Program-made: the position numbers and the translations under genes
The notes under the pieces: model-generated
What the model saw: the letters and a program-made list of their open reading frames with translations, nothing else
The model's database searches: none
Told to the model about the DNA's origin: nothing
NCBI RefSeq assembly: GCF_000820025.1
Contig: NZ_CDBI01000014.1
Span: 310,001-374,000, forward strand
DNA from: Aeromonas popoffii
Lineage (GTDB): Bacteria; Pseudomonadota; Gammaproteobacteria; Enterobacterales; Aeromonadaceae
Direction: 5' to 3'
Length of the DNA stretch: 64,000 nucleotides
Shown here: positions 49,701-57,322 of the stretch, in pieces
Layout of the letters: each line of letters starts with the position of its first letter
Position numbering within the stretch: the first letter of the stretch is position 1

Positions 49701-50174
49701 TCAGGCTTGCCAGCGGGCGGCGGCCGTGTTGTCACTCTCCTTGGCCTCGACCCAGCGTTGCACGCCCTCGGCGGTCAGCTCTTTTTTCCAGAACGGTGCC
49801 CGGGTTTTCAAGAAATCCATGATGAAGTGACAGGCATCAAACGCCGCATCGCGGTGGGCACTGCTCACCGCCACCAGCACAATCTGATCGCCAAGCCACA
49901 GCTCGCCGATACGATGAATGAGGGTACACTCCTGCAGCGGCCAGCGCTCGCGGGCCTCCTGCACGATATCGGCCAGCGCCTTCTCGGTCATGCCGGGGTA
50001 GTGCTCGAGGGCCAGCCCCTTCACCGCCTCCCCCTGATTGAAGTCGCGCACCTTGCCAACGAAGGTGACGATGGCGCCACTGTCTGGGCGGGTGGCGAGG
50101 CGGGCATATTCGTCCGCCAGCGAGAAGTCCTCCCGCTGCACCAGAATGCGATCTGTGATGGTTACGTCGCTCAT
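49701..50174 (-). CDS. moaE: molybdopterin synthase large subunit MoaE
   Basis: 157 residues with GAIVTFVGKVRDFNQGEAV, LEHYPGM, HRIGELWLGDQIVLVAVSSAHRD and FWKKELTAEG (catalytic Lys). It converts cPMP to molybdopterin with sulfur from MoaD. Its ribosome binding site GGAGG is formed by the last Gly codons of the mini-ORF just upstream (2 nt gap). Confidence 0.96.
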   Translation of the reverse strand: MSDVTITDRILVQREDFSLADEYARLATRPDSGAIVTFVGKVRDFNQGEAVKGLALEHYPGMTEKALADIVQEARERWPLQECTLIHRIGELWLGDQIVLVAVSSAHRDAAFDACHFIMDFLKTRAPFWKKELTAEGVQRWVEAKESDNTAAARWQA

Positions 50175-50176
50175 CT

Positions 50177-50272
50177 TTAACCTCCGGTCGTTACTGGAGG
50201 GAAAGGGAAGAAGGCCACTTCATCGCCATCGCACAGCTCAGTGGTACGATCCACGGTCATTATCTCATTCAT
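50177..50272 (-). CDS. 31-codon mini-ORF repeating the MoaD C-terminus
   Basis: This tiny gene fits exactly between moaD and moaE with 2-nt gaps on each side. Its second half reads [17 protein letters not shown], against [14 protein letters not shown] at the end of MoaD, ending in the same functional Gly-Gly. The ATG has GGAGG six bases upstream, supplied by the MoaD Gly-Gly codons. DNA and codons differ from moaD, so it is a diverged copy. Either a decaying second moaD or a made peptide that could compete for MoeB or MoaE. Confidence 0.55.
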   Translation of the reverse strand: MNEIMTVDRTTELCDGDEVAFFPFPPVTTGG

Positions 50273-50274
50273 TC

Positions 50275-50520
50275 TCAGCCTCCGGTCACCGGTGGGAAGA
50301 AGGCAACCTCATCGCCATCATTGATAGGCGTATCGAGGGGCACCAGCATCTGGTTGACCGCCACCAGCAGTTTGCCCGCCTCAAGGGCCAGTGCCCACTT
50401 GTCGCCGCGCTCACTTAAGTCGCAGCGCAGCTGCTCGGCGGTGGCGTAGTCGCACGGCAGGCAGAGCTCATCACAGGCCACCAGCTCTCTTACTTGCGCA
50501 AAAAACAGTACCTTGATCAT
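50275..50520 (-). CDS. moaD: molybdopterin synthase sulfur carrier MoaD
   Basis: 81 residues, ubiquitin-like, starting [14 protein letters not shown] and ending [10 protein letters not shown] with the Gly-Gly end that MoeB adenylylates and that carries thiocarboxylate sulfur. Overlaps moaC by four bases (ATGA). The codons GGA GGC of the Gly-Gly end also form the ribosome binding site of the next mini-ORF. Confidence 0.96.
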
Positions 50521-51011
50521 GCTTGCTCCCCGCTATTTGACCCCAGTTGGAAATGACCGGACTTGCCGCCCTTTTTCTCCACCAGTCGCACCTGCTCGAT
50601 CACCATGTCCTTTTGTACCGCCTTGCACATGTCGTAGATGGTCAACGCCGCCACCGAGGCCGCGGTCAGCGCCTCCATCTCCACCCCTGTCTTGCCAGAA
50701 AGTTTGCAGAGGGTACGGATATGAACCCGATGCTGTTCGGGCAGCGGCACTATCTCCACCTCCACCTTGGTCAAGGCCAGCGGATGGCAGAGGGGGATAA
50801 GATCCGCCGTTTTCTTGGCCGCCATGATGCCGGCAATGCGGGCGGTGGCGAACACGTCCCCCTTGTGGTGCTGACCGCTCAGGATCAGCGCCAGGGTTTC
50901 AGGTGCCATGGCGACGAAGGCCTCGGCGCGGGCCTCACGTTCGGTGACCTGCTTGTCGGTCACGTCCACCATATGGGCTTCGCCGCTTTGGTTGAGATGG
51001 GTCAGGTTCAT
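50517..51011 (-). CDS. moaC: cyclic pyranopterin monophosphate synthase MoaC
   Basis: 164 residues with [40 protein letters not shown], and [20 protein letters not shown]. It makes cPMP from the MoaA product. ATG 51011 is used. A GTG one codon upstream is possible. It lies 50 bp after moaB in the moaBCDE run. moaA is 7 kb away. Confidence 0.96.
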
Positions 51012-51061
51012 CACGCTCCCCTTGAAGGCTGAAATAGTACCGGGATCAATGGCTCGTGCTC

Positions 51062-57006: not shown

Positions 57007-57322
57007 TTAATCACATCAATGACAGCCATTGTGACGAGCCGCTCTGGCTCAGCCTCATGGCGCTTTATTCTTTGCATTCGACATCAAGCTCATCGAACTG
57101 GTGGTAAATCAGGGCGGCGGACAACACGCCCGGCATGGCATTGATCGCATCTATGGCTGCCATCATACGGAGTCCCGCTGGCTCAGCTTCATGGCGCTTT
57201 ATTCTTTGCATTCAACATCAAACTCATCGAACTGGTGGTAAATCAGGGCGGCGGACAACACACCCGGCATGGCATTGATCGCATCTATGGCTGCCATGAT
57301 GGGTCGCTGGCTGGGCCCTTCC
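57007..57322. repeat. tandem 134-bp repeat covering the napD 3' end
   Basis: Unit 1 (57189-57322) contains the end of napD. Unit 2 (57055-57188) is a nearly identical copy offset by 134 bp, with only four or five changes between 57046-57162 and 57180-57296, mostly synonymous. A shorter diverged third part (57007-57054) runs into the napA leader. Unit 2 still encodes the napD tail (MAAIDAINAMPGVLSAALIY onward to VECKE and TAA), with TGATG overlap to a 9-codon frame. Confidence 0.85.

Follow-up and report, generated by a model that had tools for sequence, protein, structure and literature searches.

Probable duplication across the moaD-moaE junction of Aeromonas yields a chimeric small open reading frame that may be kept as a translational relay

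Between the molybdenum cofactor genes moaD and moaE of Aeromonas popoffii, in the 64,000-nucleotide stretch of contig NZ_CDBI01000014.1 analyzed here (the window), lies a 31-codon open reading frame (mini-ORF), which our comparisons give good reason to regard as a unit that arose when the moaD-moaE junction was duplicated in tandem, and not as a shrunken second moaD. A duplication event is inferred because the unit has the structure expected if the sequence between the last part of moaD and the first part of moaE had been copied in tandem. We consider it reasonably likely that the duplicated boundary has been kept open as a translational relay; the mini-ORF would then probably serve mainly to carry ribosomes from moaD to moaE rather than to make a useful mini-protein.

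The mini-ORF and the surrounding moa genes are all encoded on the minus strand (Table 1). moaC and moaD overlap by 4 nt at their stop and start codons. The gaps from the moaD stop to the mini-ORF start and from the mini-ORF stop to the moaE start are 2 nt each, with no overlap, which agrees with the spacing given in a preliminary description made from the sequence alone. The same description assigned the mini-ORF its own GGAGG at ideal spacing; the distance of 6 nt before the ATG was confirmed, but there is no separate site, as the motif consists of the Gly-Gly codons of moaD. Both GGAGG sites are in fact the Gly-Gly codons that close the preceding ORF (moaD ends in FFPPVTGG and the mini-ORF in TTGG) and are part of the copied tail. 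As the same codons represent the ribosome-binding site of the next ORF, the Gly-Gly end of the mini-ORF can not be read as having been kept for MoeB, as had been proposed.

Table 1. The mini-ORF and its neighbors in the window; the border between the moaE-like and moaD-like parts is approximate (breakpoint not fixed)
Feature	Position	Strand	Remarks
moaC	50517..51014	-	NCBIfam TIGR00581, E 1.2e-68
moaD, full length, 81 aa	50275..50520	-	NCBIfam NF008347, E 8.2e-41; Pfam ThiS, E 4e-20
GGAGG within final moaD codons	50279..50283	-	6 nt ahead of mini-ORF ATG
Mini-ORF (putative relay)	50177..50272	-	31 codons + stop; one junction-duplication unit
moaE-like part of mini-ORF, codons 1-9	50246..50272	-	M-x-E-x-x-x-x-D-R; position-wise comparison
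moaD-tail-like part of mini-ORF, approx. codon 10 to stop	50177..50245	-	Identity with 37 moaD tails
GGAGG within final mini-ORF codons	50181..50185	-	6 nt ahead of moaE ATG
moaE	49701..50174	-	NCBIfam NF007959, E 4.8e-69; Pfam MoaE, E 7.8e-42

Residues 7-30 of the mini-ORF matched positions 60-81 of the 81 positions in the NCBIfam MoaD model NF008347 (E 6.6e-5), with scores below the cut-offs of this model (23.4 bits vs. 94) and of Pfam ThiS PF02597 (19.9 bits vs. 22.5). The mini-ORF has the C-terminal Gly-Gly of the MoaD/ThiS proteins without their full body of approx. 80 residues, and its tail differs from that of MoaD by two in-frame insertions (6 nt and 3 nt). The NCBIfam match and the position-wise identity support the earlier view that the tail was derived from MoaD, and two small frame-keeping insertions in a copy that is not recent were likewise confirmed. 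The suggestion of a relic of a whole second moaD, on the other hand, did not hold, as the unit spans the moaD-moaE junction and has a MoaE-like start; a second full moaD was also rejected because no longer relative was found at the junction in 37 Aeromonas genomes (with one masked copy in G024 that could not be judged).

Of the 24 positions in nucleotides 4-27, the unit shared 22-23 with the moaE start of its own genome in G022, G023 and G024, 12-18 in ten other genomes (13 in the window) and 5-8 in G025, G004 and G019, whose moaE starts differ; the background agreement among ATG-anchored 24-mers of the same loci, which include the true starts, had a mean of 7.0 (sd 2.7). The agreement with moaE drops past approx. 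nucleotide 28, and the unit matches moaD tails at nucleotides 43-69 (except for the third base of codon 23) as well as over its last 12 nt. As an independent line of evidence, BLAST placed unit positions 48-73 (approx.) on many moaD tails and aligned positions 1-31 with the start of moaE in G022, G023 and G024. A moaE start is thus joined head to tail to a moaD tail, with the start similarity not seen in G025, G004 and G019; the absence of a moaE-like start from these three genomes counts against the explanation favored here.

When the moaD-moaE junction was read in 37 Aeromonas genomes (one per species, including that of the window), following a search proposed in the preliminary description, a similar 96-nt ORF was found at the same junction in 16 of them, and the mini-ORF is therefore not due to chance. 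These genomes carry 24 copies in total (one copy in eleven genomes, two in three, three in one and four in one), of which 23 were readable, as one copy of the three-unit array is partly masked. The 21 genomes without the unit have moaD and moaE 1-4 nt apart, one with a 4-nt overlap. No unit was found in the 38 non-Aeromonas genomes among 75 Aeromonadaceae (E 0.001); the only match, in G044, was rejected, as it lies inside an unrelated long ORF, which we take to be a phosphoglucosamine mutase gene. A wider search considered the best 80 moaE loci of the genome collection, of which 78 were not named Aeromonas. Five of these had no recognizable moaD, and among the remaining 73 loci the roughly projected gaps ranged from -23 to 14 nt in 66 and were larger in seven, in which inspection by eye found no unit-like insert.

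Presence of the unit is barely clustered on trees, since shuffled labels need about as many changes: 11 changes were required on the gyrB tree (well-supported branches force at least 7 of them) vs. 12.2 with shuffled labels, and trees built from the flanking genes required 10 and 11 changes (no fewer than 6 forced in each; approx. 12 when shuffled). Sorting by hand (automatic labels misplace G021_1) distinguishes two MoaD-like sequence types, ELC...DEV and ELW...DEA. They coexist in the arrays of G004, G021, G022 and G024, which points to an old array from which units were later lost; units may also have been exchanged between species.

Under the relay proposed here, a tandem duplication would have copied late moaD, its stop codon and the early codons of moaE, leaving a full moaD, at least one chimeric unit (a moaE start in frame with a moaD tail and stop) and a full moaE, with the Gly-Gly codons of each unit carrying the next ribosome-binding site. 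A ribosome ending moaD would restart on the unit 2 nt further on, read 31 codons and stop; a ribosome ending the unit would restart, again 2 nt on, at moaE. The unit would be kept open as a frame that missed the moaE start would uncouple moaE, its peptide would be mostly a by-product, and copies would be gained and lost by recombination between neighboring units. Such a relay could explain a kept frame without a peptide function because a closed or shifted unit would isolate moaE, although the GGAGG of moaE itself could still support initiation despite a broken unit.

We infer both reinitiation and selection for reinitiation. Two published studies describe translational coupling as needing an overlap or a very short distance and as falling steeply with distance until almost lost at approx. 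20 nt (PMC10666635), and as most efficient when the distance is small, the Shine-Dalgarno site also having an influence (PMC12548453). The mini-ORF has a very short stop-to-start distance (+2 nt) and a GGAGG 6 nt before each ATG; on the other side, a spacing of +2 nt involves no overlap, and each start, having its own GGAGG, might initiate alone. No paper on the moaD-moaE junction or on relays from boundary duplications was found among open-licence articles in PubMed Central.

Tandem arrays in 0.8 Mb of G023, another Aeromonas genome, include boundary-spanning ones with repeated small ORFs; for the junctions in this genome, the gene names "kinase-like" and "ccmF-like" are used as our own presumptive assignments. 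In G023, three 41-codon ORFs precede the kinase-like gene. This junction (L253:11792-12273 and L305-L316), with an upstream gene of 571 codons, was compared in 12 loci, taken from the best of 36 matching genomes. Ten of the 12 loci carry 1-3 units of 38-47 codons; the other two have none, and there the flanking genes share 8 nt. In each of the ten, the first unit begins within the upstream end, overlapping it by 8 nt, and the last unit overlaps the start of the kinase ORF by 4 or 8 nt, while the unit tails are read in different frames and yield differing peptides. The geometry is thus kept and the peptide is not, and this persistence of the stop-start geometry while peptides change favors the relay. 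A rule similar to this one, though not identical, detected a relay chain of any kind in 26 of 360 ordinary co-directional gene pairs. Termination followed by reinitiation would be the simplest account that fits both junctions compared.

Related arrangements occur elsewhere in G023. At L254:18554-18835, two 37-codon ORFs start with MSERYIGLMSGT, like the downstream 369-codon gene, and 4-nt overlaps link the pair and this gene, an arrangement that likewise favors the relay. Separately, two 28-codon ORFs at L251:8145-8360 form a 4-nt overlap chain upstream of the ccmF-like gene and start with MIPELGQF or MIPEFGQF, as this gene does; the stretch had some match in 14 of 37 genomes. At L255:11651-11952, two identical 34-codon ORFs repeat the tail of a 184-codon gene in a 1-nt overlap chain. 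The contig of the window also holds a 93-nt tandem repeat at a gene boundary (G000 contig C14:262634-262867; 2.5 copies, 94%).

Tandem arrays not wholly within a called gene numbered 14 in 1.17 Mb from two Aeromonas genomes and, by the same criterion, 3 in 0.4 Mb from two genomes outside the genus. When co-directional pairs were scanned for homology, eight gene-end duplications were found in the Aeromonas genomes and one in those of other genera; these are undercounts, as the gene calls were crude (moaD-moaE was missed and at least one downstream start was misplaced). We do not claim enrichment of boundary duplications in Aeromonas, as counts of 14 vs. 3 and 8 vs. 1 are too small. As only two of the eight Aeromonas duplications (and not the single one from other genera) show a full relay chain, most gene-end duplications are not relays by this test, which argues against the generality of the relay.

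The window contains a second gene-tail duplication, at 57044-57297 on the minus strand, where a 134-nt tandem duplication (1.9 copies, 96%) places a napD tail between napD and napA. A 48-codon ORF with an ATG that overlaps the napD end contains the extra copy. In both this and the moaD-moaE duplication, the end of a gene is repeated head to tail in the space that separates two operon genes. The moaD-moaE units differ in that almost every copy has retained its frame, start, stop and spacing; these units, in addition, include the beginning of the downstream gene. Older napD-tail copies are clear in six other species among 27 aligned napD-napA spacers.

Of the moaD-moaE copies, 23 could be read, and 22 of these have an undisrupted reading frame of 96 nt with no internal stop, in line with the expectation of the preliminary description that the frame is kept in unit-bearing relatives. 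The remaining copy, in G004, has lost 2 nt (94 nt) and continues in frame through the next unit as a 63-codon ORF with its stop 3 nt before moaE; that a frameshifted copy still ends at this distance favors the relay. The GGAGG-to-ATG spacing is 6 nt for 22 of the 24 units and 8 nt for two. Over 222 between-genome pairs of 22 copies, the unit showed pN of 0.080 and pS of 0.254 (pN/pS 0.32), as compared to 0.062 and 0.404 (pN/pS 0.15) for moaD in the same pairs.

Codon substitution bias, a test put forward with the preliminary description, was assessed on a tree of 23 copies, in which that of A. caviae joined the 22 intact ones. Of the 81 events in nucleotides 4-81, 39 were synonymous and 42 were not; 25.4 synonymous events were expected, and 39 were reached in none of 200 null draws. 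This excess came mainly from codons 14-20; without these codons, 22 synonymous events were observed vs. 16.2 expected (0.045), and codons 21-27 showed no excess (8 vs. 9.4 expected). Recombinational import of moaD codons could add to the synonymous signal. Stops or frameshifts in relatives, which at neutral frequency had been named as evidence against the proposal, amounted to one frameshift in 23 readable copies and no stops, yet 32% of null draws also contained no stop. The frame is thus kept, and the peptide is under weak constraint.

One alternative explanation is that the units are neutral debris, made and removed by recombination and open only through youth. The scattered presence on the trees, a unit pS below that of moaD in the same pairs, the frequent absence of stops from null draws and the lack of a relay chain in six of the eight other gene-end duplications would all fit this explanation. 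Conversely, the 81 inferred substitutions stand against a single indel in the 23 readable copies, and the sole frameshift keeps the relay. The six older napD-tail relics, which serve as a contrast and not as a matched control, show 1-7 alignment gaps each. We thus view neutral debris as unlikely, though it is the alternative that deserves most weight.

A function of the peptide itself, as a MoaD-tail decoy that might be adenylylated by MoeB or occupy the MoaE pocket, seems improbable. All 22 intact copies have kept a Gly-Gly end, many copies have a core resembling GDEVAFFP, and pN/pS and the synonymous excess leave some room for such a function; indeed, the unit peptide shows more conservation than would be required of a pure spacer, which speaks against the relay. 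However, the peptide has no N-terminal MoaD body, its tail has three extra residues, its core shows substitutions (GDE to WHE or GNE, and V to A), and its Gly-Gly codons double as a ribosome-binding site; moreover, comparable units with changing peptides occur at the unrelated kinase junction. The 21 of 37 species that do without the unit weigh against the peptide and the relay alike. A relay and a weak role of the peptide are not exclusive.

High nucleotide conservation at some third positions could point to a structured RNA regulator or an mRNA-processing site, but RNA structure was rejected as the 22 units showed no excess folding stability (mean z-score +0.41, range -1.61 to 2.14), making an RNA element very improbable. 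We attach next to no probability to a dispersed mobile repeat that landed at the junction by chance, as, despite its patchy presence, the unit was found only at the moaD-moaE junction among the matches listed for the 37 Aeromonas genomes, had no match in phages and had a single match in the plasmid collection, one intact unit at the same junction of NZ_AP026896.1 (A. caviae, 4.9 Mb). This record (L185), which includes moaD and moaE, appears to be a chromosome labeled as a plasmid.

Going beyond the single junction, it is conceivable, albeit doubtful, that Aeromonas makes relay cassettes by duplication of coupled boundaries, with the peptide hardly mattering, the geometry under selection and the copy number (0-4 at this junction) tuning how much downstream protein is made relative to the upstream one, here MoaE relative to MoaD. 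If the relay holds, it would provide a simple route by which new small ORFs arise and persist between genes: the copied boundary would be held open by coupling and not by a function of its peptide. It would also caution against taking every conserved, in-frame small ORF with good spacing and a family-like tail for a functional microprotein. The natural variants with 0-4 copies could serve to measure the cost of each reinitiation step to the downstream gene.

Among known systems, MoaD, the sulfur carrier of molybdopterin synthase (ThiS/MoaD family), resembles the mini-ORF in a tail that ends in Gly-Gly; the mini-ORF differs in having approx. 20 MoaD residues plus three extra ones, no N-terminal body and a MoaE-like start. 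In the proposed relay, unlike in known termination-reinitiation coupling, the two genes are separated by an additional ORF that derives from their own boundary and can be present in up to four copies. As in known coupling, stop and start lie a few nucleotides apart, the ribosome-binding site is inside the end of the upstream coding region, and the genes joined encode subunits of one enzyme, which for moaD and moaE is molybdopterin synthase.
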